Part shown: positions 21,288 through 51,323 of the stretch, one piece after another
Layout: each line of letters starts with the position of its first letter
Numbering within the stretch: position 1 is the first letter of the stretch
Assembly: GCA_950295325.1 (NCBI GenBank)
Contig: OX485805.1
Coordinates: 37,621,501 to 37,685,500 of the forward strand
Source: Polytrichum commune
Lineage: Eukaryota > Streptophyta > Polytrichopsida > Polytrichales > Polytrichaceae
DNA: 64,000 bases
Reading direction: 5' to 3'
The notes under the pieces: model-generated
Told to the model about the DNA's origin: nothing
What the model saw: only the letters and a program-made list of their open reading frames with translations
Database searches by the model: none
Translations under genes and position numbers: made by a program

Positions 21288-21289
21288 AA

Positions 21290-21315
21290 CACTATATTCG
21301 TTAAATTGAGACTTT
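21290..21315 (+). repeat. Left terminal inverted repeat
   Basis: CACTATATTCGTTAAATTGA plus GACTTT, identical over 26 bp to the complement of 37868-37893. Preceded by six A residues. Confidence 0.85.
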
Positions 21316-21449
21316 TTGGGCATTTTGAGACATTCACAGAAATAAGAACAAGGATAAATGGAACACGTATTGGAGAAAGTTGTAAGATGCAAACACTTTG
21401 AAGCGGGTGTTTAGAACAAGAACCCCATTAATAACTCATATTTGGGATT

Positions 21450-21700
21450 GTTTAGGGCGGGCAATCCAAACCTTAGGCCAAGTTGAAGGGGAAATCTTAA
21501 AACATTCATATTATCGCACAAAAACTTGTATGAATATGGTTTAGGTAGGGCAATCCAAACCATAGATCATATTGAAGGGGAAATATGTGAACCAATATAA
21601 TATAACATACAAAATATTCCAAACTCATATTTGTGATGGTTTAGGTAGGGCAATCCAAACCTTAGACCATATGGAAGGGGAAATCATGTGACACTTATAT
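21450..21700. repeat. Left subterminal repeats
   Basis: Three units about 90-100 bp apart (about 21453, 21539 and 21637). Each has a GGTTTAGGTAGGGCAATCC core followed by AAACC and then a TTGAAGGGGAAAT-like tail. The core is an imperfect inverted repeat and looks like a decayed version of the 22-bp palindrome. Such subterminal arrays are transposase-binding sites in known CACTA elements; that role here is inferred. Confidence 0.7.
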
Positions 21701-21826
21701 TATTGCAAAAAAAAACATACAAAGTGTGGCATGTAAAATGCATAGCATGCTAACACCACACATCCATTGGATAGTGCGACCCAAAATGTTCTTGCCTATG
21801 GCCCAAAACCCTACGCCTACTATGGC

Positions 21827-22174
21827 CTATCTAGCCTCGGAGACTACCTCTTTTTCTTTTGCTTCATTTTCTTTTGCTTTTTTTACTTTTGCCTCTTTTT
21901 CTTTTGCCTCTTTTTCTTTTGCCTCTTTTTCTTTTGCTGCGGCTTCTTTTGCTCGCATTGCTTCAACATTCCTGAAAATCTCCGCCCCGCGACTATAGCC
22001 ATTCTTGGGGTGACCGCCATCAAAAACACATTTTGGATTCCGTCGGCCGCCCGAATTATACGACGAAGAATTCGAATACGATGAAGTGGACTGTCTTGCA
22101 TTTCTGGTCATGGAGTAGAAACGCTCCAACTCGACGGACGCACTAGCCCACATAGGTTTACGGGTGGGAGCAAC
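21827..22174 (-). CDS. Last exon of transposon minus-strand gene (KEKEA tail)
   Basis: The exon starts after the acceptor GCGTTGCAG (exon base 22174) and runs 115 codons to a TAG-type end at 21827. The first part is Ser/Tyr/Asn-rich (TRNARQSTSSYSNSSSYNSG). The end is a strongly charged tail with about five KEKEA repeats, likely helical. It is in phase 0 with the upstream exon 22308-22661. No function is recognisable; a charged tail may aid protein or nucleic-acid contacts. Confidence 0.55.
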   Translation of the reverse strand, partial: VAPTRKPMWASASVELERFYSMTRNARQSTSSYSNSSSYNSGGRRNPKCVFDGGHPKNGYSRGAEIFRNVEAMRAKEAAAKEKEAKEKEAKEKEAKVKKAKENEAKEKEVVSEAR

Positions 22175-22307
22175 CTGCAACGCGTCAATGCAAGAACACA
22201 TGTGTTAGTTTAGGGAGGAAGACCCAAACGTGTCACACGTTCAATTTTTAAGTGCGGGATGATTGTAATGCGCGGTTAACCATGTTTTGGGGGGGGGGGG
22301 GGTTCAC

Positions 22308-22661
22308 CTTGTCACCGGGGGCGTTCCCGTCGGAGTTGGCGAGGAGGGGCAAGGCGTCCCGCAAAGGGATAGGAAGGGTGCCACTCTTCGTGGGCCGAGC
22401 GTCCATCCGCAGCCGCCGTTGAGGTGTAATACTGCCGCCGGGCCGAGAGGGGGACGTCCGGATGCATTTGCGATTTATGCCCTTGAGCGGCGACGGGGAC
22501 AGAGATGGCCGGAAGATTTGCTTGGGTGGGGGGCTATCGACGACGCCGGCGTTGATAGGCTCTTTGGAGTAGTCGATGGTGGACGCGGCATCGTAGACGG
22601 TCTCGTAGAAGAAGCTCCCCAAGTTTGATTCGCTGACGATCTCAATCGAGGGCTCCAAACG
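22308..22661 (-). CDS. Penultimate exon of transposon minus-strand gene
   Basis: A strong branch and pyrimidine tract ends in GCGCCAG at 22662, then 118 open codons lead to the donor AAG|GTGAAC at 22307. The 133-bp intron that follows holds a run of about 15 C on this strand. The product is Pro/Ser-rich (SPPPKQIFRPSLSPSPL) without a known domain. A clean donor joining the phosphatase exon to this acceptor was not found, so the connection upstream is unresolved. Confidence 0.5.
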
Positions 22662-22772
22662 CTGGCGCAAAAAAAGAAACAAAACAAAACCCAAGGGGAG
22701 GGGGGAGCATGTGAAAATCGATATACAATTGAGGCATAATATATCACACACAATGGCACACCATGTAGTATC

Positions 22773-23537
22773 TCAAATGAGTTTATTATATTTCGCATGA
22801 GCGTACAACTCTCTGTACATATAGTCCTTCGGATCCATGTATCTTTCGCCTATCGGATTACAACTAAGGAACCGGGGCACGGGTAGTCCGCTCCCCACGA
22901 GCGTTTGAATGTACTTAAGTAGGTCTAACAAAAAGCGGTCTCGGACCTTCTCGACCGTCCACGTGGGGCAAACTATGAAGTTCGAGGTCGGGTTCAAAAT
23001 GTTTTTGGAAGCGCTGTCGTCCACCATCAACGTGTTGTCATGGGTGGGGCGAACGTCGTAGGGACAGCCGACCATGGTCGGACGCTGGTCCCATACGACT
23101 GGCTTCAAGACCTTAAGAAATTGGTTTACGGCGGGGTTGTTGGGCTTCTTCACAACCCTGCCCTCGGGGGTGTATAATGTTTTACAAGAATCCTGTCATA
23201 GGACCAAGCACGGGGGTTGGAGTCCCTTGAAGATGAACTCCACGACGGCCTGGGTATTCTCGGACTTCATGGAGCTCCAAATGATCACCCACCATTTGGA
23301 TAGGGCGACCTGTAGGAAGCGCCGAAGGGACGGGCGGAGGTACACTAGCTTGCTTTTGATGTACGCGGGGGGTCCATCGTAGTTGGCGTCCTCGGGCTTG
23401 CAGAAAGGCACCGTAGGGACCCTCGGACAATGCACGCACTGGACAAGGACCCCGTTGAGGTCTAGCACCAGGAACCGGGTCTTGGGAGGCGAAGGTGGCG
23501 AGGGCAAAATCGGGGGGACCACCGCGCTGTCCTCCAC
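22773..23537 (-). pseudogene. FCP1-type HAD phosphatase-like domain with in-frame stop
   Basis: A single frame encodes an FCP1/NIF-like HAD fold. Motif I is LVLDLNGVLV, a plant-type DLNG variant of DxDxT. A KLVYLRPSLRRFLQ segment follows, then motif II VIIWSSM. A KPxxW segment and motif IV TLMVDDSASKNILNP come later. The family dephosphorylates phosphoproteins such as the RNA polymerase II tail. An in-frame TGA at 23196-23198 interrupts the domain between PPCLVL and QDSCKTLYTPEG, where relatives have an ordinary residue (Trp by TGG-to-TGA is the simplest reading). There is no ATG: the frame begins at GTG 23537 or, if spliced, after GTGGAG at 23531. It is either the C-terminal part of the large minus-strand gene or a separate captured gene. 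Confidence 0.7.
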
Positions 23538-24081
23538 ACTCCTCGGAGAGGATCAGTGGGGAGCTGCGACGCTATGCTCCGAACCCTGCGGCGACGAGCG
23601 AGAGAAGGCGGACGAGGACTATGTTATGCTATGTCCATCTCAAGCAGAACGGAAATTTTGTGCAAACACAAGAAGAATTGGACCATTGGTGGCAACAAAA
23701 ACATACAAGGGGAACAACATACATTGGGACACGGATGCAAACATATGGGCGCCAAAAATAATAATTTTATTTTTACAAATCTCTATGTACAATTTTATTG
23801 GGGGGGACCGCGGTGAACGAGGGCATTCACACTACCCTAATTCTACATCTACAAAATTGGTTGCGCGCCGCCAAGGTCGAGTGTAGTCGAGTGCAGGTGA
23901 GACGAAGGGGATCGCGGGGGGGCACGTTGGGGGGAGGGGGAGCAAGTGTAGAGCATGGGGGGGGGGGGGGGCAGGGGGTGTGCATTTCCTCCTAGCAAGG
24001 GGGACACGACCACGCCAACAAGACAATGACCCAGGAAGTTTGGGTCGGTCGACCCAAACTGGGGAGGGCTCAGTGTATTAC

Positions 24082-25569
24082 CTCGCCCTGGTCATGTCTC
24101 GACGATGTGGAAGCCTCCACCGTCCCCGCTGCCCCGCCTCTCTCGCCACCGCCTTCTCCGACGACGTCAGGAACCTTCTCCTGCAAACGATCGGCATCAG
24201 GCCCTTGTCCTAAACCAATCTCCGCATGTGCATCATGCATGCGTTCATCGATTTGGTTAGGAGTAGAGGTATCACCAGGCCCTTGCAGGCCTTCAACATC
24301 TAGCATGGCCGTGTCTAGTTGACACCCATGTTGGTCAAGGGAGGACTGCGCTGCAACGGGGTTTGGGTCGCCCGACCCAAACTGTCCTGCATCTGGAGAG
24401 GGCCCTTCGGACACTCCAGTGGATGGTGGGTTTGGGTCGGTCGACCCAAACATCCTGGGGTCGTCCGCTTGGTGAGGGGGCGCCATGACTATGGGGGGCC
24501 GAAGTGGTGGAGGGCCCAAAGGGGAGGAGGCTCCAGAGACGCGCCAGATGTTGGGGTCATCCACTTGCTGGACCGGCGCATACGGAACTTGGTGGGGCCG
24601 AATCAAGTGCTGGAAGCTGAAAGACAATTGCGGCACAGGCTGCTGAGGGATGCTCTGCGGAGGGAAGCCGGGGGGCAAGTGCGGGAAGGAGCTGGAGGGA
24701 GCCACCACCAAACCTTGCGCCCACATTCCTTGTATCACTTGTGATATCAATTCGGCGTGGGACGGAGGTTGGGCCATCGCCCTCTGTCGCTCCTGCTCCA
24801 ACAGGAGAGCCCTCAGCTCTGCTACCTCGTTCCGCATTGAGGGCTCTTCAGCGGCAACCTTCTGCAGACGGACGCGTTGCTCCTCGTCCCTCCTCATCTT
24901 CTCGTTCGCCTCCTCCACAGTCAGGACCTCGGGCTTCACCCTAACCATGCCAGCGAACGCTGTCGGGGAGGGGGGATCTGATCTGAGCCGTTTGGCGAGC
25001 TCAATATCATCGTCGTCCTCGCTGCTTATGGCAATGGTCTCCTCCACGGAGTAGTCGCCATACAGCTTCTTCCCCTTCAACTTCCTCCTCTCCCTGAACG
25101 TGGCGGTCGCGTCCCTGGAGTACATGTCCCGTGCATCGTCCACAGTCAGGACGGGCACGAGCTTACTCTGCGGGGTTGCCGCCCGCATCGCCTTCTTCCG
25201 TTGAGGGGCTTCGGATTGTTGCGTGAAGCCCGTTGCCCCTTCCTCGACGTCGCCTTCCTTCTCCGCCTCCTCGTGTTCCTCTGCTTCCTCCTCCTCCTCC
25301 TCAACCTCGCCACCTTCTGTGCGGGACGGATTGCCCGGATGCAACCCGACCAGAGGTTCGGGAACTTGGGTCGTGGCCCTCATGGCCATTTCCTCCGGGT
25401 TGATGCGCCTCACCCTATCAAGAGGGTTTTCGCCACCCTGAACAACCTCGTCGACGTAGCTACCCGGGATCCAATCGAGGATGTCCATCTTCTTCGCCAG
25501 CGATTTCTGCACCCTATAAAATGGCAGATCGCCATCCTCTATGTAGGAGTATATATTCAGCCCCGACAT
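24082..25569 (-). CDS. Exon 3 of transposon minus-strand gene (coiled coil, Pro-rich)
   Basis: The exon spans 496 codons from the acceptor TTGTGTAG (exon base 25569) to the donor GAG|GTAATA at 24081, both phase 0. It begins MSGLNIYSYIEDGD, which completes the methyltransferase-like segment of exon 2. An acidic EEEEEEAEEHEEAEKEGD region follows. Then comes a helical, probably coiled-coil stretch (NEKMRRDEEQRVRLQKVAAE and following). After that lies a long Pro/Gln/Met-rich tail. Two copies of the transposon's 22-bp palindrome lie inside the exon and are translated as FGSTDPN and FGSGDPN. No stop interrupts the exon. Antisense open frames over it are GC-driven shadows. Confidence 0.7.
24361..24451 (-). 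repeat. Two palindromes inside coding exon
   Basis: GTTTGGGTCG-CC-CGACCCAAAC at 24361-24382 and GTTTGGGTCG-GT-CGACCCAAAC at 24430-24451 lie inside the open exon and are read as FGSGDPN and FGSTDPN on the minus strand. They are 47 bp apart. All six frames of the palindrome are free of stops. Confidence 0.85.
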
Positions 25570-25643
25570 CTACACAATCCAAGTTATAGGGAAATTAGAA
25601 TTTGTCGAGGCAGTCACATATACAAGACTAAGTGAAATGTGTA

Positions 25644-25773
25644 GTTTGGGCCGGTCGACCCAAACCTGCAAAAAGCCTAGTTTGGGTCGGTCGACCCAAA
25701 CCTGCAAAGAGCCTAGTTTGGGTCGATCGACCCAAACCTGCAAAGAGCCTAGTTTGGGTCGATCGACCCAAAC
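25644..25773. repeat. Four palindromes with exact 36-bp period in an intron
   Basis: Copies start at 25644, 25680, 25716 and 25752. The 14-bp spacer CCTGCAAAGAGCCT-like sequence is almost constant. The centres are CCGGTCG, CGGTCG, CGATCG and CGATCG, so the last two are perfect palindromes. The array fills the 232-bp intron between exons 2 and 3 (25570-25801). Confidence 0.9.
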
Positions 25774-25801
25774 TGCTTACGAGCTATAGAAAGTCACTTA
25801 C

Positions 25802-27133
25802 TATAGCAGCATAGACAGGTTTTGAGCCTCCGAAGACGTTGAAGATGCAGTCCCCTCTCCTCGTCAGCGTCCTCATCATTCTCATGTAAAATTCCATCCG
25901 CAGCTCATCTAAAGGATAGTTCGCGTATTTAGCCTCGTCGTAGAGGCACTTGTTGGCACCCAACCCTTCTGGAACTAGGAAGAGTTTGTCCATCCGGGAT
26001 ATAGGGTGGTTCGGCACCTTCAACAACTCCGCTTTGTACACGAAGTACAAACACAAGACGTTGACGAACTTGGTCTTCTTGTCCCTCAACGTCGTGTAAG
26101 CCCCCTCCGCCGGTGCGGCGATGTAGTGAGACTTGGAGACTGCATACTCCGCCTGCAGTTTCCGGACAAGCTCGTACACCTGCTCCGCCCTCCTATCCTC
26201 GACTATCCAAAGCCAGATATCTACCTCCCTGAACTTAGGGCTTGCATAATCGACGAACTTAGATAGGAAGGGGTCATAGAAGAGGGTGCTCATTGTGCCC
26301 TCAAATGAGCTTCCAGGAATATTCCTGAAATCAATCATCCCAAAAGGAAAGCGGTCCCTTGCTTTCGTCCTTATCGCCATTCTGGCGTCCTGACCTGGCT
26401 AGCCCTGAATTTTCAAAGGCTCGAAGGTGACAAGGTTGAAGTAAGCGTCCCCTTCAAACTTGACAATCTTCTTCTCCTTGATGAAGTTCGAGAACGCACG
26501 CGCTGTGTGATCCGGAAGCGCCCGGTTCTTCCCACCCTTCACCATCTTGGCCCGCAAGAAGTCGTCCCCCGCTTCCCTTATTAGAGCCGCCATGGAGGCA
26601 CTGGTGAACTTATATTCATCTTTGAATGCTCTCCAGTTAGCCTCATGAACCTCGCCGTCCACGACAATATTCCTCTCTGGCACCAATTTATGCAGCTCCT
26701 GCACGATAGTCGTCTTCTTTTTCCTGTTCTCCGTCCATTCCTTCATGGTGTAGCATGAAGGAACGAAGGATTTGGGCTTTTGGAAGACAATCTTCGGGTG
26801 CACCCAACACCTCTTCGCCGTGGGTGCCACGTGCAGGATGTGCGATGCCGCCTTCTCCACCTCCGTCTCTGACAGACCTTGAAGAGTTCTAAAGAACTCT
26901 CTCACGAGAGGCTTCATCTGCTTGAAGCGCGAGGCCAGGCTAAAGAAAGCGCCAGTGTCGGGGTCGATCAAATCCCCCGTCTCGTGCTTTTCAAACACGG
27001 TTTTCCACTTCCTCCAAACTGAGTCCGATGCTGTAATCAAGTAAATCTCCTCCTTGAGGTCGCTGTATTTCTTTTGCTTGTGGCTCGAATTATCAATGGA
27101 GGAGAATTTGTTGATCATTTGGTATTTGAAATC
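25802..27133 (-). pseudogene. Exon 2: methyltransferase-like region with in-frame TAG
   Basis: The exon runs from the acceptor CACGTGCAG (exon base 27133, DFKYQMINKF) to the donor ATA|GTAAGTG at 25801, in phase with both neighbours. A TAG at 26399-26401 (between EPLKIQG and PGQDARMAIR) interrupts one otherwise continuous frame of 444 codons. The C-terminal part reads VDIWLWIVEDRR, then FVNVLCLYFVY, then RRGDCIFNVFGGSKPVYAAI, and continues MSGLNIYSYIED in exon 3. The order (aromatic strand region first, GD-x4-FxGG near the end followed by an AA-helix and GR-like strand) resembles beta-class N4/N6 DNA methyltransferases. The usual FxGxG is FGGSK, and a clear DPPY or SPPY is missing (SPKF or YDPF are the nearest). 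It may therefore be inactive or only distantly related. Confidence 0.5.
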
Positions 27134-27223
27134 CTGCACGTGAACAAAACAGAACATTTGAATGCGTGTTAGATATGTACATGTGATTTCCAAACCATAT
27201 CATGACCAACATCTACAACAAGA

Positions 27224-27341
27224 GTTTGGGTCGATCGACCCAAACTAAAAAAAAACACAAGACTGCAACAGTTGTTTGGGTCGATCGACCCAAACTAAAT
27301 AAACAAGGCTACACCAGGAGTTTGGGTCGGTCGACCCAAAC
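27224..27341. repeat. Three palindromes inside intron 1
   Basis: Copies at 27224-27245 and 27274-27295 (perfect, centre CGATCG) and 27320-27341 (centre CGGTCG). They lie in the 217-bp intron 27134-27350 between the ParB-like exon and exon 2; the last ends 9 bp from the donor. Confidence 0.9.
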
Positions 27342-27350
27342 AATACTCAC

Positions 27351-28676
27351 CTCCCACTTGGGATTCTTGTCCTTTGCATTCTCCCTCTCCTTGGGAGGCC
27401 TACCATAGAACTCCCACACCTCCCGCGAGGCCATGATATTCCTTATCCAGGAAGCTTGGTAAGCCCTCTTCTTGTTTCCCATATTGAAGTACCAGGAGAT
27501 GTCGCTGAGCTTGGTCTCGTCGTCAGACCACACCACCAGTGCCTTCCAAACCTTCAGCTTTTCCTTCTGATTGTTGGGATCATCCCACTCATTCATGAGT
27601 TGGATTTTCTTGGATGCCTCCACGCTGTGTTGGCCGTCTATCAGCCAAAAATCGCCCTTCTGAATTGTTGGCCACATTTCAGGTGTAGGCATTTTCTTGA
27701 GACCCTGTGGCATCACTACAATCGTTTGCCTGTTGTCTTTAAACTGCTCGCAAACGATCTGCGCGATTATCCAGTCAACGTAGGCGTCCTCCTTTGCCCG
27801 GACACACTTCTCCGGTGGCGCTAGATGGCACTGGCTGATGTTCACGTCGAACTTGAAATCCCTGCCCATGAAAAAACAGTGGGAGCATTTCGTCGTGAAA
27901 TTGTTCACAATTTTCTGCAGCTCCCCTGCATCCACCTCTTCGCCGGGCTTCGGCATGCGCAACTCCGGTGAGACTGGCTCGTCAGTCATCACAGATGACT
28001 CTCTCGTCCTCTTGGATGGAGTTGTTTGACGGCTCCCAGAAGGTGTAGGGGTCTCACTATTCGTAGGTGTTTGGGAGGGAGTGGTCCTACGCGAGTCAGC
28101 CGGTACTGGTAGCGGCATCCTCACCGATTGAGGTCTTGACGACCCTGCTCCTTCCTCTGTGGGAGCTTTCCGCCTCACAGGTTGCTGTGATTTGGTTTTG
28201 CTTTGCAGGCCCCTGTTCAGCACGGTTATTGCATGTTTTAGTTTTGTGAACCGGCTTGAGACCTTGGTATTCGATGTACTCCCATCGATAAATATTGTCT
28301 CCGGCTTGATAACTTCCGGTTCGACACAGGACTCTCTTGCATAGAGTGCGTCGAAAGGCTCGGAGAACTGGTGTATGAACATATGCGCGTTCTGCACAGC
28401 CGAGTTCTCGAGGATGACGTCGGTATAGTCTCCAAGAGACTGTACCGATGCGACCTCCCATCCCGCAAGAGTCGCCCAGGTGTGTTTCTCCACGGTTCCC
28501 ACCTTGACAACAAAAATCATTTTGTATGTTGAGGCTTTGACTACTTGAATAGACCAAGCGAGGACAAGCCCGTCCTTAGGGGAATAGGAGTCATCCTGCG
28601 GGGTTTCGTGCTCCTGCCACAACATGTCCGGCGCAGGCATGAACCACCTTTCGCCGGGTCTTTTCTTTGGAGCCAT
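27351..28676 (-). CDS. Exon 1: ParB-like (DGQHS) domain of transposon minus-strand gene
   Basis: The exon has 442 codons from ATG 28676 (MAPKKRPGERW) to the donor GAG|GTGAGT at 27350. The ATG lies directly after TTTCTTACAG, a good acceptor, so a 5' untranslated intron is likely. Residues 1-130 are a compact domain of unknown type. Residues 160-245 are Ser/Thr/Pro-rich linker. Residues 298-360 read VDWIIAQIVCEQF, then TIVVMPQG, then GDFWLIDGQHSVEASKKIQ. This matches the pattern of ParB/sulfiredoxin-fold domains (hydrophobic helix, Pxx-V strand, then [ILV]-x-D/E-G-x-H/R-R/S-x2-A). A segment KVWKALVVW...ISWYFNMGN follows, as after ParB motifs. In bacteria and phages ParB domains are often fused to N4/N6 methyltransferases, which fits the next exon. 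The domain call is by eye. Confidence 0.6.
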
Positions 28677-28702
28677 CTGTAAGAAAATAATGTGCAAGGT
28701 TA

Positions 28703-29087
28703 GTTTCGGTCGTTCGACCCAAACATCTATGACATGAATAGGTTTAGGTGGATTGTGTATTTTTATATTTCAGCATCATTTGTAATGATAATAAGAATGT
28801 TGTGATTATTGGGTGGATTTGCATTTTATATTGTTTGTGACATGCAGGATTCCTTGATACTTTTCCTTGATACATTCCTTGATTATTATTTTGGGTTGAT
28901 GTGAATTTTATATTGATGCAAAATATCATGGATTTCTTTATGAGTTTATAATTAGAAGACTTTGTTTGGGTCGCTCGGCCCAAACATGATGCTTTGTTTT
29001 GTGTTTGGGTCGAGCGACCCAAACAAAGGGCTGTGTTTGGGTCGGTCGACCCAAACAAAAGGCTGTGTTTGGGTCGTCTCCCCAAAC
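28703..29087. repeat. Five palindromes upstream of the minus-strand gene
   Basis: Copies start at 28703 (GTTTCGGTCG-TT-CGACCCAAAC), 28964, 29003, 29035 and 29067, the last one damaged. They sit between the start exon and its likely 5' untranslated exon. The centres vary most (TT, CTCGG, AG, GT), while the GTTTGGGTCG arm is well kept. Confidence 0.85.
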
Positions 29088-29289
29088 AGTATTATTTTAA
29101 TATATTTTTTAAACTTGGCATGTAGCATATACAATGCTTATGCATTGTGTATGCTACAACACCGTGAATCTACAAACACATATTGGTTAAAATAAAATAC
29201 AATACCTTTCAAAGATGTTGTGCAAACAATTTGGAGTAGAGCAGGTTGTTCTTCCAATAATTCTCAATATCAAACAAACTGTGAGAAAG

Positions 29290-29610
29290 TTCAATGAGAA
29301 ACTTTCAAACAACTATCAACTCTCTCAAACAGCTCTTGGATCTCTCAACCAACTCCTGAATCTCACACAGAACTACTGAATCTCTCAAAAGACTTCGAAA
29401 TGTCTAAACTAACTCCTGAATCTCACACACAACTACTGAATCTCTCAAAAGACTTCGAAATGTCTAAACCAATTCCTGAATCTCACACACAACTACTAAA
29501 CCTCTCAAAAGACTTCGAAATGTCTAAACCCACTCCTGAATCCCTCACAAAACTACTGAATCTCTCAAACGACTTCGAAAACTCTCAAACAACTCTTGAT
29601 ACTCTTAAAG
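29290..29610. repeat. 60-bp tandem repeat, about four units
   Basis: Units of 60 bp begin near 29341, 29401, 29461 and 29521, with shorter relatives before 29341. Each contains GACTTCGAAATGTCTAAAC and CTACTGAATCTCTCAAAA. One plus-strand frame (29400-29714) stays open and would encode 20-residue repeats of the form MSKPTPESHTQLLNLSKDFE. The open frame may be a by-product of a 60-bp period divisible by three; I cannot tell whether it is translated. Confidence 0.75.
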
Positions 29611-29859
29611 AACTCTTGAATTTCACAAGCACTCCTAAAACTTCCAGTACAAACACCTGGACCTCCCAAACAGAAGCTTTATCTCCTACACAATGTTCTA
29701 CTAACTTCCCTTAGCACTTTCCAACACTCTTCAACAGTCTTGGACTAATTTCCTTCACACTCACGCTCGAAAACCCTCCTCCGTATGTTTCTGTTTCTTT
29801 CAAAATAAACCCTAACTTCCAAGATTGCACTGCGGCTATTCTATTGTAGAGCAAGAGGA

Positions 29860-30065
29860 AGGAGGGAAATAGAAGAATTAGAAGAAAGCAAAACGCGGGT
29901 GAATGTGAAGAAAACCCACACCAAGCCTGAATCGCCGTGGCGCTTTGCGAAAGCGGCGCTTCAGGAGAGGCGGCGCTTCCAAGCAAAGCGCGGAGCGTAA
30001 GCTTGGCGCGGAGAGAGAGAGAGAGAGAGAAAGAATGAAAAAATGTGACGGTTGGGGTTTTGTTT
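29860..30065 (-). promoter_or_regulatory. Possible promoter and 5' leader of the minus-strand gene
   Basis: A GC-rich island in AT-rich surroundings. On the minus strand it has a CT microsatellite (30012-30032) followed by CGCGCCAAGC- and GAAGCGCCGC-type sequence and pyrimidine-rich stretches ending near 29850. CT-rich leaders are common in plants. It lies about 1.2 kb upstream of ATG 28676, which is preceded by a splice acceptor, so a long 5' untranslated intron would connect them. This is inference without a clear TATA box. Confidence 0.3.
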
Positions 30066-30383
30066 GCCTCGGGAATTGGCCCCCAACCACATGAATAGGG
30101 TGCCCACAGGTTTAGGGCACCCACGGAAACAGGGTTACAGGGAACCCTAAAACCTAAAGCTTGACTCTAAACCCTTAGCGGGCCTACCTCTTTAAGAGTA
30201 CATAGGCTATTTGCCTCATAGCATAGGTTGCATTCTACAATATCAACTTTTTGTAAGTTGAAAACCTTTTGAGTTTGTAAGTTCCTCGCCAATTGCCTTC
30301 AAAACTAATTTTTAGTAGGTTAAAATCCTTCATATCTTTTAATGTTGTAGGTTTTAAAATCAAAATTTGAGTACTAAGTGGGA

Positions 30384-30438
30384 TCCTTGGCAGGAATTGA
30401 ACCTGGCTAAGCCTTTCACCACGTTTGAAGGCCAAGGA
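30384..30438 (-). repeat. tRNA-like or SINE-derived fragment
   Basis: On the minus strand GGTTCAATTCC (30393-30403) matches the RNA polymerase III B box and T-loop. The segment is enclosed by TCCTTGG and CCAAGGA, a 7-bp acceptor-like stem. It is only 55 bp long, too short for a tRNA, so a tRNA-derived repeat fragment is more likely. Confidence 0.3.
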
Positions 30439-30781
30439 TTAACCAAGTCTTTTTTAAAGAGTTGATTATAAGTTATGAAAGGTTGCTAAAATTCAAATGA
30501 GTTCAAGGGTGAAAGTTCTCACCATGTTCTCATTCAACCTCTACTCTTCCTGCAAGATATAGCCTAAAGATATGTACTTAGGCCAACTAATTTCCCAATT
30601 TGAAGAAGGATGAATGGCTAAAATCCTCTCTTTTAAAAAAAATTTAGGCAAAATTTCCTAAATGTTTTTTATCACATAGGTTGATATCCTATGTTTTTAA
30701 ATTGTCCATAGGCTCTTTGTCCTACACTTTCAAAATTTTATAGGCTAAGTCACTAATTTTGTAGGCTGCATTTGTTTTAAT

Positions 30782-31035
30782 CGGTATATTCATTAATTTG
30801 GGATTTTTTCGGCATTTTGAGAAAGTTACAAATATAAGAACATGGATAAAATCGCACGTACATTGGAGAATGTTGTAAGATGCAAATACTTTGAAGCGGG
30901 TGTTCATATCAAGAACGCAATTAAGATCTCATATGAAGATGGTTTAGGTAGGACGACCCAAACATTACACTATGTTGTTGTGGTTCATATATTAATTTGA
31001 GAGAAGAGAAAATCTCAAATTAGCAAATTTTAGGG
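30782..31035. mobile_element. ~250-bp decayed MITE related to the large transposon
   Basis: Its first ~190 bp resemble the left end of the large element at 21290-21475. Shared blocks include TATATTC, GGCATTTTGAGA, GTTGTAAGATGCAAA and CTTTGAAGCGGGTGTT, then GGTTTAGGTAGGACGACCC. Its last ~60 bp resemble the right end at 37834-37893 (TTCATATATTAATTTGAGA, then GAGAAAATCTCAAATTAGC). Left end followed at once by right end is the layout of an internally deleted derivative. It has no clear target duplication and is well diverged. Confidence 0.65.
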
Positions 31036-31504
31036 TTTAGGTTCTTTTGGACCCTGCTCTAAACCCTTATTAGTTTTTTCAAAAGAACTATGGAGTACCC
31101 TAAGGTGCTACATAAAATGTGTTATTCTACAAAACTAACCATTTATATAGCCAGCGCATTCTTACAACAAAACTTTATGCTAAACTAATACTTATCCCCT
31201 ACTTACATGACACCATACCCTAAATTTTCCAAAATCATTGAAGGCATTGGTTTCTCTTTTGTTTGAGCATGTTAGAAAAACCATATAATTGCGTTATATT
31301 TAACGATGTAACCATTCACATTTAGTCTTTACCAATGATGCCAACAATTCACACGATATTGAATGAAAAAATAGAGATTACACACACCCCCCAACATGTG
31401 GAACAATTTAGAATAATTGAGTGTGGAGCCTAATAAATGAATACCTTCCCCAACTGCATTTTGCAAGGGTTTTGAAATGCACGATCCTTATTTGAAAATG
31501 CGAA

Positions 31505-32400
31505 CATGCTCAAGTTTTAAGTACATCCCTTAGATCGTGACTTTAATGAATCACATAGTCGCCAATAAATCATGGTTCATGATATATTTAATATATAGAT
31601 TGTGATATAAGAGTAAATGGGATAAGCACAACATCAAATGAAGCCATTCAAGCAATCATGTTGTTATTCCTTGTTCCTTCCATGTATATTAGATGATGGC
31701 GCAAGATAAAATAGATGTTGTTTGTATATGGGGGCATCAGTGAACCACAACTACATTTGGTGTTTAGAATTTAGGGTTTAGGGTTTAGGAGATAGGAGAT
31801 AGGGTTATAACATATTAATCTATCCAATGTCAATGTATAACATTGTCTTACTCGTGAGAAGAGTCTTATAGGAAGGTTATAGTGAAGACGATGTTGATTA
31901 TGTTAATTTGTTATTTGAGACGTTTAAACGCGATATATTGATTGGTCGTGTGTTTATTCAAATAACATGAAATATTGTGGATGTTAATAGGGGCTATGGG
32001 TCCAACTTTGGATGTTTCGCTCACTTTAGGGAATCACATATTAGTCGCTAATAAACCATCGTTCATGATGTATTTAATATATGGAATGTCATGTAAAAGT
32101 AAATCGGAGAAGCACAACATCATGTTGTTATTCATTGTTCTCTCCACGTGTATTAGATAATGGAGGAAGATATAACAGATATTGTTTGCATAATATTATG
32201 AAGAAGAGTCTAATCGGAAGGTCATAGTAAATACAATCTTGATCATGTTAATATGTTATATGGGACGTTTAAACATGATATCCTAATTGGTTTTGTATTT
32301 AGTCAATGCGTATTTCATGTTGTGGATGTTATAAGGGTTTAGGGTCCAATCTTGGATGTTTTGCTCTCACACATTAGTAAACTTGAAGTGAACTTGAGGA
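31505..32400. repeat. Two diverged direct repeats of about 350-500 bp
   Basis: The first unit contains GCCAATAAATCATGGTTCAT, TTGTTATTCCTTGTTCC and GAGACGTTTAAACGCGATAT. The second (from about 32021) contains CGCTAATAAACCATCGTTCA, TTGTTATTCATTGTTC and GGGACGTTTAAACATGATAT in the same order. No coding frame is kept. Short GGGTTTAGGGTTTAG runs occur at 31758 and 32522. Confidence 0.7.
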
Positions 32401-33279
32401 TGGATTCAAGTAACATTAAAAGATTGAACTAGAAAGGGACATTGGTAGTTAGTATCCCCTTAACAACGTCCACATACGTTCGTCATTGCCACTCTTGCAT
32501 GCGAGATAATAGAGCAAGGTTCTAGGGTTTAGGGTTTAGGGGGGACAAATAAATAATTCTATTCATCATGACAATGGCCTCAAGCCTTGGAAACTCTCTC
32601 ATAATTGCAGCCTCCAAATGGCCCAAACCCCACCTAAATAGGTTTACACTTGAAAGCATTGAATGGAGTTGTGTTTGGGTCTACATATTGGTTAAAATAT
32701 ACCTTGATGATACTTGAAAAAATTAATGTGGCCGCCACCCTTCCTCCCAATGGCGTATGTCATATCCACACAAAACAAAACAAATAGATTAAATAACATA
32801 GACTAAGTCATATGACGGCTGGGGTATCATAGGGGCATTGATAGATGCGCATTTTTCTATTATAAACAGAAAACGGGGAATTCTGTCAGGAGGTTTGAAA
32901 TAACCTCTGCAAGAGAAGAAGGCGGGGAAGGCATCCAATGACTAAGTCTGGGAAGCGGAGGTGGATAGTATAAAGGGGCGCACCCCCCAAAAGTCGGTCC
33001 TTTTTTTCTCTTCTCCCGCTATCGAATTCGTAGAGAGAACTCTTAGTAGGAGCTGTACTTCAAGGTTCGTGCATGCTGCCGTTCATGAGCACTTATCCAT
33101 AGCATGCAAGTTCATGAGCACCTATCCACACCATGCAACCCCACCGTGAACTTTGCAATGAGCTCAAATTCAACACACCACGCAATATCCGCCGCATTAT
33201 ACGCCGGATTTTGTGGTGTACTTGGGCGAACCTTCACCTTTACACTAGTGTTGGCGGGTTTTGAGTCTGACCCTATGAG

Positions 33280-34096
33280 GTTTGGGTCGACCGACCCAAA
33301 CCTGTCCACTAGTGTGTTAGGGTTTATGTCTGACCCTTAACATGTTTGGGTCGGTCGACCCAAACCCCAACCCCAGTGTGTTAGGGTTTTTGTCTGACCC
33401 TTATCAAGTTTGGGTCGACCGACCCAAACCTGTCCACTAGTGTGTTAGGGTTTATGTCTGACCCTTGTGAGGTTTGGGTCGGTCGACCCAAACCCCTACC
33501 CCAGTGTCTTAGGGTTTTTTTCCTGACCCTTATCAGGTTTGGGTCGACCGACCCAAACCACTACATGGTGTGGGTGGATGTACTCTTGTGAGGTTTGGGT
33601 CGGTCGATCCAAACCCCTACCCCCAGTGTGTTAGGGTTTTTTCCTGACCCTTATCAGGTTTGGGTCGACCGACCCAAACCCCTACGTGGTGTGGGTGGAT
33701 GTACCCTTGTGAGGTTTGGGTCGGTCGACCCAAACCCCTACTCCAGTGTGTTAGGGTTTTTTTTTGACCCTTGTCAGGTTTGGGTCGACCGACCCAAACC
33801 CCTACCTGGTGTGGGTGGATGTACCCTTGTGAGGTTTGGGTCGGTCGACCCAAATCCCTACCCCAGTGTGCTAGGGTTTTTTTTCTGACCCTTATCAGGT
33901 TTGGGTCGACCGATCCAAATCACTACCTGGTGTGGGTGGATGTACCCTTGTGAGGTTTGGGTCGACCGACCCAAATCACTACCTGGTGTGGGTGGATGTA
34001 CCCTTGTGAGGTTTGGGTCGGTCGACCCAAACCCCTATCCCAGTGTGTTAGGGGTTCAGTCCGACCCTTATGAGGTTTGGGCCGGTCGACCCAAAC
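33280..34096. repeat. Array of 14 palindromes in alternating orientation
   Basis: Copies start at 33280, 33344, 33408, 33472, 33537, 33593, 33658, 33714, 33778, 33834, 33899, 33955, 34011 and 34075. The asymmetric centre (GACC versus GGTC) mostly alternates, giving a composite unit of about 121 bp (33537, 33658, 33778, 33899). Between them lie CCAGTGTGTTAGGGTTTT and GGTGTGGGTGGATGTACCC blocks. The array ends about 200 bp before the ATG of the transposase candidate, where a promoter would be expected. Confidence 0.9.
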
Positions 34097-34295
34097 CTGC
34101 ACCAAAATAATTCCTGGAACTTGTTTTGGACTTGCACACAGTGTTGGGAGTTCACATTGTAGTTGTGTTGGAAATGTCTTCATCCTCGGTGTCCCCATTG
34201 ATCATGGTGTCTTGCATTTTCCGATATTTGATTCTTTTGGACCCTTACATTCTTTCCATGTGTGTTGAGGTTTCATGTGCATGTGTGTAGGCGCA

Positions 34296-37200
34296 ATGGA
34301 GGGAGTTGGTGGAAGAGGGGATTCCTTCTCTGACGACATGGGCAACACCCAATCTCCGTCTGGGGATGAGCTAGACATTGTTGGGGAGGATAGTTTTGAT
34401 GACAGTGCAGATGAAGGTGACTTGGGGAGTCCTTCGCCATCTGCCCCTTCTTGCCCCACTGTGGAATGTGCTAGGCTTTCACGAGCTTCATGGGTGAATT
34501 TGGATATAGTACTTGTTAATGACAGTGGAGTTGCTGTGGCGGAGGGTATTTGTCGTAACACACATCCACAAGATTGCATTGATGAAAACCCCCTTGGCAC
34601 CGAGGACGTTGGAGTTGTTATATTGGAATCACTCGTACATTCCGAAGTTAATCCAACTCATAGGTTCTCGTTGCGAAGGTGGCCGTTGAGGAATGTGACA
34701 ATTGATGGGGTTAATTTGCATGAGCATGAGCGACGACACATCCAAATCCAAGAGGAGCTCCAAGCAAACATTCGGCCACGCAAAGGCCTACGGAAGTACG
34801 ATACATTGGCACGTCCTATTCCGTCTGCAAATGAGTGTAAACGTCAAAGGTTGCTTTGTGAGGAGTCCATTGGAGAAGTTGCCACAAAGGATTGTTGTGT
34901 ACATCGTTGTTGCCAATTGTTCCCAAGGGATAAATTGAAGGCCATCCGCGAGGAAATGTGGCTTGGAGATTTCCGTCTAAGATCCACCAAAAAGCTTGAT
35001 GTCCATAGGGCGATACATGTGAACGGAGCGGGTCGCAAGGTCATCACCCTTCAGAGCATAGACGTGTGTTGTACGGCATGGTACATCATTCACGGTGTGT
35101 CGAAAGCGGAATTTTATAGACAAGCCGCGTATGCCAAGGAAGGCCGCCGGTCCCATCACCATGGGAATACGGGCTTAAAGAAACCAAGGGAAGCAACGAG
35201 ACAAGCAACCGCCACTCTGGCAACCATCATTGTCCCCCTTGCCGATGCAATGCCACACAAAACACGCACACTCGCAACCGGTGAAAAGGTTGTGGAGAAG
35301 GTTCTTCCTACAGGCACGAAATGGAAAGACATATTGTTGGACGTAAACGCAGTTGGCGAGAAGGCTGGGTTGGACCCTATTTCGTTGTCGAAACTGAGTG
35401 CAATAAAAAAATCTCACTTTAGCGAATACATCACAAAAAGACGAGGCGACAAATTTGCGCGTTGTTCTAAATGCGAGAAGTTGAAACGCCTTCGAGATGC
35501 ACACACGATGGGGACAGAGTCCTATGCCGCACATCAAATGAACTATATCAAGCATGTGAACATGCAAGAGGCACACCGTAATGATTACTACACAAATAAA
35601 ACTTTGTCCATCTCTAGGCCTTTGGAGGTCCTTACAATCATCCATGACAAAATGGACCATGCCAAAACAGCCTCACCATGTTTTGCAAATCGAATCAAAG
35701 CCACGGACGGCCTTTTTAAGCTTCCTGTATCGGTTACAGGTGATTTCGATAACAATTGCATTGCATTACCTAAACACAAATTTGTGCTTTAGGTTTGTAC
35801 TTGGGACCATAGATGTACAGCAGGTGAATTTTTTGGTGTCATAGTTGAATATTAAACCATTGCGTTGGCTTTGCAGGGATGATTGCACATGGACATGGTG
35901 ATGTCAAGTATGCTCATTATGCTCTTGATTTGTATCCGGCGGATTCAAACCACACGATAGGGTCATTTGCAAAGCTTTTACGTGATTTGGAGAAACCGCC
36001 GTCCTATTCATCAAGATTGTTATTTGAAAACTCGGGATCAACACCTCTATATGAAGCGGTCTTGGATGGAAGAGATGTATGCGTGCACTCCTTGCCGGAG
36101 CCACCAAGTGAAGATGTGATTGCCAAGAATTTGCCCCCAACTCTGCGTGTCCAATTGGACAATTGTGCGAAGGACAATAAAAGTAGATATGTTTTTGCAT
36201 ATTGGTCGTTGTTGGTTGCGAAAGACATTTTCAAGGAGGTTTTTGTGTCCTTTCTATTGGTAGGCCACACGCACGACGATATCGATGCATCTTTTAGGCG
36301 GTGGAGCATGAAGTTGCGCGAGGAGGATTTTCCAACAATCCCATTGTTGATGAAGTCGTACATGGATTTGGAGAACATTCCCGTCATCCCCCATATGATC
36401 GAGGAGGTTCCCGACTTCAAGGCATTTATAGAACCGTATATTCGAAGCGGAGCTCACCGATTGATCGGACATACGAAGGCACAACAATTTCGGTTCTACG
36501 TGCGTGACGATGGTGTCCCCGCCATGCAATACAAGTTGTTGTGCACGTCACAAGACTGGAGCCCGCCGGAGGGTCTCCTTGTATGGCGTGTTGATGGGGA
36601 GGAAAGGACGATGTTGCCTGACGGAGAGCCTAAGCCTTGCAAACCAATACCCATGAAGAATTTGGAGGACATTTGTAAAGGCATATCAGGCTTCATACAA
36701 TATTGGGAGAGTTTGAGGGTAGCGGATGTTGGTGGATCGTGTTGGCTTCGTTACGGAAGTTGGATACAATATTGGACACGTGTTCGTGGCGCTTTGGCAA
36801 ACCTTCATCAAGATACACCCCTTACTTTAAGGCATGGGTTTTGGCCACAAACACGTGTCAATGTACAAGCTTCGGAGGCTAGTCTTTTGGGAAATGGAGA
36901 GGTTCGAGAGGAGTTTGATGTGGACGACCATTACGTTGGGCCTGCTAGTAGTCGTCCGCCACCATCTTTCCGCATTGCAGTGGATTGTCATGAAGGTTAT
37001 ATGCTCATTTTGCGTCCTGGAGATGAGACATATGCAAAGCCAGTGTGGGTGGCAAGAGCTTTGTCCAATCCAAATTTTGTAACTTCCAGCCCTCATTTTC
37101 GACAAATACAAGTAGAGTACTACCGACCGACAACACGGAATGAAGATGTTGTTCGGCATTATACAGGCTGGGATACAAACCAACACTTTCGGTGGAAGGT

Positions 37201-37363
37201 GGATTCTGAGCACGGTCCATCTTGGGTAGATACAGATTCCATATTCATAGCATGGAAACCACGGAAAAATCATAGTGGATCAGTGTCCATCCCTCAAAAG
37301 TACATAACTTTTGCAAAAGACAACCTTGCTCGGATCGCAGAAGAAGCAACCCACGTTGAATGA
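34296..37363 (+). CDS. DUF7869-like protein, candidate D-D-D transposase
   Basis: Two exons, 34296-35739 and 35877-37363, are joined at CAG|GTGATT and TTGCAG|GG with a 137-bp intron (phase 1), giving 976 aa with no interruption. ATG 34296 is chosen because GCGCAATGG is a strong context; an in-frame ATG at 34275 is weaker and lies before a possible acceptor. The N-terminus is acidic. CCVHRCC (200-206) and CSKC (390-393) may bind zinc. Across the junction KLPVSVT-G-MIAHGHG is a family block. An RNase H-like pattern follows: IIHDKMD (D451, D454), VQLDNCAKDNK (D576) and LLVGHTHDDID (611-618). This wording is typical of DUF7869 proteins. A transposase role is inferred from the acidic triad and from lying between matched inverted repeats. 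The C-terminal ~350 residues have no domain I can name. Confidence 0.8.
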
Positions 37364-37867
37364 GAAGTTGGTAGGATTGTGTTAGCATGATTATAGTGTA
37401 ATATGTAATTCGACAAATATATATTACTCATATGTGTGCTCCTCAAACTTGGGGCAAAGTTTGGGTAGAGCTTGCGAATGCTATATTGTTTGGGGTTGGA
37501 TGAATATCCATTTACTATATTTCAATGCAGTTGTGAAGTTCATTTTTTTTATTAAGTTTGGGACTAAATTTTCCAGTGAAGAAAAATGCATTTATTGCAT
37601 GTACTTTGTATGTTGCAATGTCTATATTTTATTGACCATGCTAATAATAGAAATCATTTTATATGTTTCTTGGGTGAAACTAGTTTGGAGTGCTCTACCC
37701 AAAGTGTTTTTGTTGATGAAGTTGATGTTGAGTGCTCTACCATATGTGCTTATGTACACACATAATAGATTTGGGATATTAGAACATATAATATATTTGA
37801 GATTGTTCGCAATATAGTTTCGGAACACGGAATGTTGTTTGATCCATATATTAATTTGAGACTAGAG
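37364..37867. repeat. Right subterminal region
   Basis: AT-rich, non-coding. Half-sites related to the palindrome occur: AAGTTTGGGTAGAGC near 37450, GTTTGGAGTGCTCTACCC near 37683 and GAGTGCTCTACCATA near 37729. Directly before the terminal repeat, TTAATTTGAGACT and AGTCTCAATTTAA form a hairpin (37851-37882). Confidence 0.55.
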
Positions 37868-37893
37868 AAAGTCTCAATTTAACGAATATAGTG
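37868..37893 (-). repeat. Right terminal inverted repeat
   Basis: Exact complement of 21290-21315, ending TATAGTG, followed by TTAAAAG. Confidence 0.85.
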
Positions 37894-37906
37894 TTAAAAG
37901 AAGCAA

Positions 37907-41279: not shown

Positions 41280-42497
41280 ACCAAATTAACTTCGTTCGTC
41301 TCCATCAAGTCATGTATTAGCCTACACTCAGGCGAATTCTCTGCAAGTCAAAGCTGCACCATTCTTTCGTGTAGAATCAATCGTCACTCACGTTATTATG
41401 TTCCCTTCCTTCAGTAGTCATATGTTTAGTCACCTTATGAACTCGACCTGATGTGAAGGTCTTGAGTATAACCTTCTCTATGCGGTGTCTCTTTTCTTAC
41501 TGTGAGGTTAGCAACAACAGTTTCACGCATCATTGTAAGACTCGTCTGCGACAACAAGCACCTTGTGTCATTACTCCAAAGAATATCCATGCAAAAAATC
41601 TGTGGACCCAGGTCAAAAGCTGATCCTTGCTTCATGTGAGTTTCTCTTCACGAAGAAAAATCATTATACATGGCCATGGCACTTGCCGTTGAGACATATT
41701 GCAAGTACTAGGAGGCAAGTAGCCAGCAACATTGCAGGAGCTTTAAGTTCATCATCACCTCACGGGATTCGGAAACACAAAGACGTGAACACAATCCCAC
41801 GACTTCCCTGCCAGCATACAAAATCTCAGTATAACAATCAAGAGAGCACATGTTATCAGCTCTGGACTCTGGAACGATTTTCCAAAGAATGGTGGCAGAA
41901 TCTTTATTTGCAACCTTATCAATGATTCAGGACCAGGAATTGCACAAAGAAATGTTTCCCAACACTGAATAGGCATCTTGAGATGCAACCCCTATCTCGA
42001 AATTTCTGCCCATAGCTTCATGAGGTCGGGTTCCTCAATATCCACGTAATCTATATATTATATTGCTTATATGACTAGTTGAGCACATCACCCATCAGCT
42101 CTCTGCCGAACGCCATGATCCTCAATCGCCCAGCCCCACCAGCAAATGGATTTACACCTATCTCCAACCCTCGATCAAGCGCCCCAGCAACTCATGAGGT
42201 GACCTGTGAATACCAAAAACAAACCAGATGGTTACAAAACCCAGCCACGTGACCAGTCGCCATGCGTTCTGTAAGTAGAGAAAGTATACTGCAAAGCACA
42301 AAGCTCCATGATCAGAGTAAAGTACACGACTTTCACTACGTACGAGCAATGCCGCTTTAATTCCCGGCTTCATCTTGAGTGATGATCAATTGTGCACGAA
42401 GGAATCCAAGCGGTGCCGCTTTGGCCTGCAGAGAATGATTCGCAATGTGTAAGGGCCGTACCTCACTTGATGGAGACGAACGCAAGTAAAGTTTGTT

Positions 42498-42878
42498 CTA
42501 CACGGCGATGATGGCGAGAACGAGGCCCAGAAGCGAGTTCACCAATCCGCCCAGGAGGCTGAGGACGGTCGTGGTGACCGCGCCCACCGTCACCTGAATG
42601 CCACCCACGACCTGGGTGAGGATCACCTCCGTGACACCCAGGGGGAGGTCGATGGAGCTTGTGATCTCGTTCCCCAGGCTGTTCACCAAGCTCAGGACCA
42701 GGCCCAACGCCTCTTGGGTGACGGTGACGACGGCTGTGACACCCGCCGCGATGTCGATGCCGTTCACGTTGATGCTCACAGGAGTCTGGTTCTTAACACT
42801 CACGCTGACCCCATGCACCGCCATGACGGCGGCCAACAGGACCATGCAGATGAGAGCGCTCTTCGCGGCGGACGCCAT
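42498..42878 (-). CDS. Small secreted hydrophobic protein, copy A
   Basis: 126 aa. ATG 42878 is chosen because a TATA box lies 136 bp upstream and because frame upstream of it is promoter and leader sequence that happens to be open. The N-terminus MASAAKSALICMVLLAAVMA is a typical signal peptide, likely cut after VHG. The mature part has no Cys or Trp. It alternates polar and hydrophobic residues (SVSVKNQTPVSINVNGIDI), suggesting beta strands, and ends in a hydrophobic stretch (SLLGGLVNSLLGLVLAIIAV). It is probably secreted or surface-associated; the family is not recognised. The product differs from copy C mainly at TTTVLSLLGG and AIIAV. Coding sequence is GC-rich compared with its surroundings. 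Confidence 0.8.
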   Translation of the reverse strand: MASAAKSALICMVLLAAVMAVHGVSVSVKNQTPVSINVNGIDIAAGVTAVVTVTQEALGLVLSLVNSLGNEITSSIDLPLGVTEVILTQVVGGIQVTVGAVTTTVLSLLGGLVNSLLGLVLAIIAV

Positions 42879-43013
42879 TTGATCGCTCGATCCAACTCTT
42901 TGGATCCTCCTGAAGTGCTGGAGCTGTAGAAAGCTGGAGAAGAATGAGGAGGATGGATCCGGTAGCTGCAGCTGCAATGAAAGATGATGGTGAACTCCGA
43001 GGACGGTGTGCAC

Positions 43014-43022
43014 ATTATATAG
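43014..43022 (-). promoter_or_regulatory. TATA box of copy A
   Basis: CTATATAAT on the minus strand, 136 bp before ATG 42878, kept at the same place in copies B and C. Confidence 0.7.
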
Positions 43023-43279
43023 CTCATCGCCTCCGTCATACAGGATCCGGACACCTCTAGCAACGTCGACGTCGCCGCGTGATTCCACCCCATGAAAGTG
43101 TTGTGGACGTGCCAACTGCCAAGTGATAATCCTTCATGAGTCGTGCCTCGACGTTCCTTGGATTGGGGTTATCTTCTTCCGGTGCACTTTAGGCTCACTT
43201 TAGGCTCATCTGGAGCTGGCTGCGTATATGGCCACTTGCAGTTGGGGAACGGTGACTTTCATGTGCACGCATGGGGAGT

Positions 43280-46020: not shown

Positions 46021-46043
46021 AAGGTCCGCTCATGAAATAGTTG

Positions 46044-46222
46044 AATCACTCGCCAACAAGCTTGACTTTAAGCACCCATTTTGAGATAATTGTGTTCTCC
46101 CTAGCCGGTCGATCCAAAATCTCCCATGTTTGATTTCTTGCAATCCATTCCAACTCTTGTCTAATTGCTTCCCTCCAACCTTGATGTTGAGATGCCTCTT
46201 CATAATTCTCTGGTTTATTGAT
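46044..46222 (-). pseudogene. Ty1/copia polyprotein fragment
   Basis: The minus strand reads INKPENYEEASQHQGWREAI, then RQELEWIARNQTWEILDRPA and RENTIISKWVLKVKLVGE before a stop. This is the linker and start of the copia reverse transcriptase (EA-x-W-x2-AI-x2-E-x3-I-x2-N-x-TWE-x8-I-x2-KWV-x-K). The catalytic YxDD part is absent. Confidence 0.8.
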
Positions 46223-46488
46223 TTATGCATTGTGCACATGGTCATTGTGTCTCATCGGTGGTGTTCTTAATCTTGTTGATGCACTCCTCAATACTGACTC
46301 CTTTTGTTGTGTGCTGTGTGATGTTGGTTTGGTGGGAGCAACTACACGTGTCCTTGTCTAGCTACTTGTTATCCCTAAGTGTCATAAGATGTGTTTTGAT
46401 ATTTGTGGTGTGAGTTGTGGTGTGGGTTGTCAGTCATCAAAAATGGATTGATGTCATTGGACATGTCATTGTTGTGGTAGTTGATATA

Positions 46489-48923: not shown

Positions 48924-49298
48924 CTACACGGCGATGGTGGCGAGAACGAGGCCCAGAAGCGAGTTCACCAACGCGCCCAGGAGGCTGAGGAGGGTCGTGG
49001 TGACAGCGCCCACCGTCACCTGAATGCCACCCACGACCTGGGTGAGGATCACCTCCGTGACACCCAGGGGGAGGTCGATGGAGCTTGTGATCTCGTTCCC
49101 CAGGCTGTTCACCAAGCTCAGGACCAGGCCCAACGCCTCTTGGGTGACGGTGACGACGGCTGTGACACCCGCCGCGATGTCGATGCCGTTCACGTTGATG
49201 CTCACAGGAGTCTGGTTCTTAACACTCACCCCATGCACCGCCATGACGGCGGCCAACAGGACCATGCAGATGAGAGCGCTCTTCGCGGCTGACGCCAT
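48924..49298 (-). CDS. Small secreted hydrophobic protein, copy B
   Basis: 124 aa from ATG 49298. Identical in plan to copies A and C, but two residues (SV) are lost just after the signal peptide: VHGVSVKNQTP instead of VHGVSVSVKNQTP, a 6-bp in-frame deletion. The C-terminus matches copy C (TTTLLSLLGALVNS and ATIAV). The open frame and TATA box are intact, so it is probably functional. Confidence 0.8.
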   Translation of the reverse strand: MASAAKSALICMVLLAAVMAVHGVSVKNQTPVSINVNGIDIAAGVTAVVTVTQEALGLVLSLVNSLGNEITSSIDLPLGVTEVILTQVVGGIQVTVGAVTTTLLSLLGALVNSLLGLVLATIAV

Positions 49299-49433
49299 TT
49301 GATCGCTCGATCCAACTCTCTGGATCCTCCTGAAGTGCTGGAGCTGTAGAAAGCTGGAGAAGAATGAGGAGGATGGATCTGGTAGCTGCAGCTGCAATGA
49401 AAGATGATGGTGAACTCCGAGGACGGTGTGCAC

Positions 49434-51320: not shown

Positions 51321-51323
51321 AAT

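Follow-up and report, generated by a model that had tools for sequence, protein, structure and literature searches.

Within a 64,000-nucleotide stretch of the Polytrichum commune genome (the window), a minus-strand gene inside a mobile element encodes a ParB-like motif and, further on, motifs reminiscent of DNA methyltransferases, raising the question of what this protein is and what it does for the element. Gene structure, mobility, conservation, motif conservation and palindrome distribution answer the first part plainly: it is a conserved protein with a DGQH motif, encoded by a giant plant transposon that has its own palindrome system. For the rest, our preference is tentative and falls somewhat short of probable. 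It is that this conserved accessory protein, which belongs to a large DUF7869 TIR transposon, joins a DGQHR/ParB-like part to a non-catalytic, methylase-derived part and would serve in anti-silencing via the palindromes. The first-pass annotation had noted ParB-like and methylase-like motifs, an observation that is partly confirmed, and had interpreted them as a ParB-methylase, which is partly supported.

The transposon and its accessory gene

The 16.6-kb element (21288..37895) is a TIR DNA transposon, since it has shared 28-bp terminal inverted repeats (AACACTATATTCGTTAAATTGAGACTTT), 4-bp target duplications (AAAA in the window) and a transposase-like gene; it also occupies many insertion sites. 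Copies on C7 and C3 match the window sequence from 21285 onward, carry the same terminal inverted repeat at both ends and have the 4-bp duplications CAAA and CAAG. The transposase gene region (34269..37363, plus strand) includes a DUF7869 domain in 35849-37363 (PF25273, E 4.1e-42). Sola2 transposons have TIRs and 4-bp target duplications (PMC3627910), and the 16.6-kb element resembles Sola-type transposons in those two features, whereas its transposase is annotated only as DUF7869. A second accessory gene of the transposon encodes a NIF/FCP1-type HAD phosphatase (22773..23552, minus strand; PF03031, E 2.7e-7 and 1.8e-4 for the two halves), and has an in-frame stop in the window copy. Elsewhere in the window, a retrotransposon gag fragment (10397-11086; PF03732, E 1.8e-12) is accompanied by 165-bp repeats between 9043 and 16346, and three dispersed repeats in 41578-58600, 6.4 and 8.9 kb apart and 68-97% alike, carry a gene whose small product looks secreted (MASAAKSALICMVLLAAVMAVHGVSV...). 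The host genome also has an AUX/IAA domain gene, as expected of a plant.

The accessory gene of interest lies on the minus strand and has three exons and 1,385 codons, with the frame kept across both GT-AG introns, as read from ORFs and splice sites. Exon 1 (27351..28676, 442 codons, delimited by its ORF and splice sites) encodes DGQHS at 27624-27638 (residues D347-S351), with FNMGN downstream. Intron 1 (27134..27350) separates it from exon 2 (25802..27133), and intron 2 (25570..25801) precedes exon 3 (24070..25569), which has 499 codons plus the stop and is mostly low-complexity. Exon 2 holds IDFRN (26321-26335) at the position of methylase motif IV and FGGSK (25820-25834, residues 876-880), near its end, at the position of motif I. 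It also contains a TAG nonsense codon at 26401-26399, the sole break in the reading frame of the gene. That TAG is private to the window copy, because the codon is a sense codon in every other aligned copy (22 locus records, 16 distinct places).

LIDGQHS had been placed in exon 1 by the first-pass annotation, and it is indeed present there in a long minus-strand ORF. The same annotation had counted exons 2 and 3 up to FGGSK, and these are one exon (27133-25802) cut by the private TAG, which had been read as an exon boundary. FGGSK lies near the end of this exon, and the gene continues into the third exon (25569-24070).

Conservation and a probable ParB-like domain

Exon 1 is encoded at at least 95 places at 91-100% identity, mostly stop-free, a count drawn from 1,169 first-look candidates. 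Among close copies, 33 of 34 informative locus records have an intact DGQH, and FGGSK is retained in five of five. Compared with an 83%-identical relative (L052), the window gene has a dN of ~0.1 with synonymous sites near saturation, and dN/dS is ~0.035 for exon 1 and, for part of exon 2, ~0.1. Judging from these substitution rates, the accessory gene is under purifying selection in exons 1 and 2.

The gene also has distant relatives. A homologue at 28% identity, with VDGQH, lies near a strongly diverged DUF7869 element (G000:C6:41940433), and a search with this homologue led to L050, L051, L053, L054 and L070-L074. L050 is an intact 875-codon ORF without stops, with the DGQH and C-terminal regions in one polypeptide. 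By coordinates, of the seven best-scoring diverged DUF7869 hits, six have an accessory-gene homologue 0.5-20 kb away. A model of the distant relatives retrieves the window protein, the colinear matches being GRDFKFDVNI and the stretch downstream of DGQH, with an E of 5e-5 for one target. An alignment of six rows (window, L052, L050, L072, L071 and L074) shows no variation at the D, Q or H of DGQH or at the A that follows, and several positions further on are equally fixed; one row has DEQH instead of DGQH. The families that keep DGQH are otherwise only ~20-30% identical. From the invariance of D, Q, H and A across diverged element families, the DGQH region is, at the sequence level, an old and selected part of the transposon protein.

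A captured host or bacterial gene, carried as cargo with no role in the element, would be in keeping with the passengers of other large elements and with the phosphatase gene in this one. It is the faintest of the possibilities considered, since the accessory gene is kept in old, diverged element families under purifying selection.

Searches of Pfam, NCBIfam, PHROGs and PDB sequences with the accessory protein returned nothing over threshold. The best sub-threshold library match is a phage ParB-like family (E 0.22), and it falls exactly at DGQHS. The ParB N-terminal domain model, PF02195, has no match over its cut-off in the protein, and its matches in the genome are in the small contigs C10, C12 and C23 alone. 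In these contigs, probably contaminants, ParB and methyltransferase genes are clearly of bacterial or phage type, and two ORFs of 501 and 722 codons each match both families. The PF14072 (DGQHR/DndB) HMM has no match anywhere in the genome, and the exon-1 protein has no tblastn match in phage records and none in a viral-contig scan.

Profile comparison points to the DGQHR/DndB proteins. A window-based profile scored 24.1 against 85 bacterial DGQHR/DndB proteins, with 18.3 for the best of 60 column shuffles, and the score was exceeded by none of 40 and none of 60 column shuffles. The hhalign probability against DGQHR/DndB is 1-7%, for an aligned part that is short and confined to the DGQH neighbourhood; the classical phage ParB profile gives no hhalign signal. 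DGQHR and FxxxN mark the DGQHR branch of ParB/Srx proteins (GmrSD study, PMC4619093). The window protein has DGQHS and FNMGN, FxxxN is also present in L050, and the fifth residue is Ser, Ile or Val, with Arg absent in all families. Shuffling the exon-1 protein 200,000 times yields DGQH in 0.09% of cases and DGQH-x3-A in 0.007%, and never DGQH-x3-A with FxxxN after it.

The window protein has in common with DGQHR/DndB (PF14072, TIGR03187; ParB/Srx superfamily) DGQH, an Ala three residues later, FxxxN and a hydrophobic stretch ending in Asp. It differs in being encoded by a eukaryotic transposon, whereas DGQHR/DndB genes belong to phosphorothioate or plasmid loci, and in having Ser/Ile/Val for Arg. 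An AF2 model of a 741-residue relative has a pLDDT of 34, too low for an informative Foldseek search, and the lack of a ParB-like fold among the matches of this model carries no weight. The exon-1 part probably contains a ParB/DGQHR-like domain, not a classical ParB, with its fold predicted. The ParB-type domain of the first-pass annotation is partly supported, by a short DGQHR/DndB-like profile signal and not by a classical ParB match.

A possible methylase-like C-terminal part

The first-pass annotation had described a GD-x4-FGGSK-x4-AA arrangement. The motifs are there (25820-25834), but the spacing is GD-x5-FGGSK-x3-AA (GDCIFNVFGGSKPVYAA), and the phage methyltransferases compared with it also have the x5 spacing (GDIVLDSFGGSG). 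The motif I region of the window protein, GDCIFNVFGGSK...YSYIED, can be set against FxGxG followed by a helix and a strand ending in an acid, with the final Gly of FxGxG being Lys. The start of exon 3, MSGLNIYSYIEDGD, would correspond to the strand and acidic residue that follow motif I. An HMM of 87 phage methyltransferases has its best local match exactly at RGDCIFNVFGGS, in motif I (P ~0.003-0.007), and this match is suggestive only, because in HMMER the best of 2,000 shuffled window sequences outscores the window (7.0 vs 2.9 bits). A local profile test for motif I gave a z of 6.5 for the window and nothing for the relatives. There was no signal in hhalign comparisons of small alignments with phage methyltransferase alignments, and semi-global profile alignment to methyltransferases gave scores near zero and was hence uninformative.

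DPPY ([DNS]PP[YFW]) is the catalytic motif of beta-class amino-methyltransferases. By the PF01555 criterion it is absent, with IDFRN in the window and IDCRWG, FDCRNG and INTRFG in relatives. Its position reads D-x-R or a variant in every family, so ordinary N6/N4 methylation is not expected. The first-pass annotation had looked to conservation of both DGQHS and FGGSK in relatives; DGQH is kept, but FGGSK is lost in distant relatives, where it is replaced by VGLCST or MEGFSH; of this region only G-x-[SC] is kept, along with an acid that follows the next strand.

Structure prediction had been suggested as the check, using AlphaFold and Foldseek. Relatives of the L050 family from the same genome were used as AlphaFold inputs because they have both regions in one open frame, and the second alignment, for the C-terminal domain, had the C-terminal piece of the window protein as a row. 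The template-free AF2 model of a relative's C-terminal domain has a mean pLDDT of 41 and a pTM of 0.44. With this low-confidence model, Foldseek against the whole PDB retrieved mainly beta-class N6-adenine methyltransferases. The top match (E 1e-3, probability 0.96, for a model of pLDDT 41) is one chain of the MTA1-MTA9 complex, followed by METTL3-METTL14, M1.HpyAVI, MboIIA and METTL4, with TM ~0.25-0.3 for the MT-A70-type proteins. VIA-align with the same model gave its top rank to Alba/IF3-C-like folds, at Z 6.0 and an rmsd of 4.0 across 82 residues; methyltransferases reached Z 4.2-4.6, with up to 149 residues aligned. The outcome of the suggested check is thus divided: pLDDT values of 34 and 41, and a Foldseek ranking for methyltransferases set against a VIA-align preference for Alba-like folds. 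The MT-A70 proteins, which supply the top Foldseek matches of this low-confidence model (MTA1-MTA9 and METTL3-METTL14), carry DPPW, which the window protein does not have. The MTA1-MTA9 and METTL3-METTL14 complexes include non-catalytic partners.

A methylase-like C-terminus is possible, and the modelled fold leans towards a methyltransferase-like one. The claimed methyltransferase-like domain survives as a weak motif I in the right place, and lacks DPPY, conservation of FGGSK and an hhalign signal. Methylation by the accessory protein alone appears unlikely from its sequence, because DPPY is missing, FGGSK is unconserved, hhalign is null and VIA-align favours Alba-like folds.

The motifs may also be coincidental. 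The protein would then be a transposition subunit of another fold, perhaps binding the palindromes described below, with no ParB or methyltransferase ancestry; TnpA of CACTA elements is an example of a second DNA-binding transposon protein. This explanation is doubtful, though worth weighing: it accords with the empty library searches, the very low profile-profile probabilities, the lack of any such match to methyltransferases and the first rank of Alba-like folds in VIA-align. It sits poorly with a DGQH that is invariant between families ~25% identical, and with the predicted strand/helix order and Foldseek ranking, which point to beta-class methyltransferases.

Phage ParB-N6/N4 methyltransferase fusions (e.g. 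MW202867) have in common with the window protein the order of a putative ParB-like and then a methyltransferase-like part, and GD-x5-FGGS. In contrast to them, the window protein is encoded by 1,385 codons that include long additional regions, lacks both the GHxR ParB motif and DPPY, and shows no similarity by profile to the ParB domain of the phage proteins. An active ParB-methyltransferase modifying element DNA, as the first-pass annotation proposed, could appeal to the resemblance of GDCIFNVFGGSK to motif I, to such fusions being common in phages, and to a Pfam-level N6_N4 methyltransferase in another mobile family of the genome. We regard it as very unlikely in view of D-x-R or similar for DPPY in all families, the unconserved FGGSK and the Lys for the last Gly of FxGxG.

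Two repeated gene families in the genome encode N6_N4 methyltransferase domains. L241 (G000:C1:9661401-9663100) scores 32.8 bits with PF01555 and has DIPYG and VGTGA motifs, and L242 (G000:C4:41570301-41570850) has motif I only and tens of copies. Neither is detectably related to the window accessory gene, and L241 was ruled out as a bridge to it for lack of detectable similarity.

Palindromes and a possible anti-silencing role

A 20-bp palindrome (TTTGGGTCGNNCGACCCAAA) occurs in 22 exact and six one-mismatch copies in the window, all inside the element. They span 24039-34095: some lie in the two introns and exon 3, others 5' of exon 1, and an array of them is found upstream of the transposase gene. 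Exact copies are at 27225, 27275 and 27321 in intron 1, at 25681, 25717 and 25753 in intron 2, which also has a one-mismatch copy at 25645, and at 24039, 24362 and 24431 in or at the end of the exon 3 coding sequence. The array (33281..34095) has 14 copies (11 exact, three one-mismatch). The genome contains 9,731 exact palindromes, and the reversed control none. The middle dinucleotide is free (TTTGGGTCGATCGACCCAAA), and arrays are often regular, with ~32-85 bp spacing. The palindrome looks like a candidate site for a two-fold symmetric protein. Folds aside, a deeply conserved element protein together with 9,731 identical palindromes in one plant genome is an unexplained and tractable system.

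The arrangement resembles that of VANDAL21 in Arabidopsis, where the VANC21 motif recurs within element-gene introns and ahead of the transposase; there, a protein encoded by the element binds to this motif and strips off DNA methylation (PMC5735166). As in VANDAL/VANC, the 16.6-kb element has an accessory gene and short repeats that are element-specific and lie in introns and upstream regions, including that of the transposase. The likeness is one of motif placement: the repeat here is a 20-bp palindrome and there a 9-base directional motif, and the 16.6-kb element has a DUF7869 transposase and a 4-bp target duplication. By this analogy an anti-silencing or element-marking role is favoured for the accessory protein, and the binder of the palindrome could also be the transposase or another factor. 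Of the roles suggested in the first-pass annotation, guided binding to the palindromes is the more attractive.

In the preferred reading, the exon-1 part would most likely be a DGQHR/ParB-like nucleotide-binding or DNA-associating domain. The C-terminal part may descend from a beta-class amino-methyltransferase that has lost DPPY, and may bind DNA or a partner instead of methylating. The protein, or a complex with it, would recognise the palindromes scattered through the introns and the region upstream of the transposase, and this may keep the element open for expression and transposition, in a VANC-like anti-silencing. If true, a eukaryotic transposon would be running a DNA-marking protein of bacterial-style ParB/methylase derivation directed at a repeated palindrome of its own, and VANC anti-silencing would have a counterpart of independent origin. 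The palindrome is absent from the sequenced pieces of distant relatives, though the accessory gene is kept there; if the protein binds it, specificity would therefore have changed between families, as among VANC proteins.

The same palindromes suit two other explanations. A DGQHR/DndB-like repressor could bind those palindromes that lie in its own introns and close to the transposase promoter, and so hold expression down by autoregulation. DndB is a negative transcriptional regulator according to work cited in PMC10853773, DndB/DGQHR is the best profile match, and the palindromes are in regulatory-looking places. We consider such a repressor unlikely, the match being limited to the DGQH neighbourhood and the coding exon 3 also having palindromes. 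It is similarly improbable that a phage-type ParB/DGQHR-methyltransferase fusion has turned into a non-methylating, palindrome-guided coat or mark of element copies, with thousands of parS-like nuclear sites, for anti-silencing or DNA organisation.

Comparison of palindrome copies by column gave no significant constraint on the arms (4/54 vs 27/157, P 0.12). Protection of CpG from deamination in the palindromes was considered from the count of cells (0/368 vs 118/6,538, P 0.003), and was set aside since independent columns are not significant. Degenerate palindrome-like sites (TTTAGG..GGGCAATCCAAA) at 21451, 21540 and 21640, near the left end of the element, are perhaps an older form of the palindrome.
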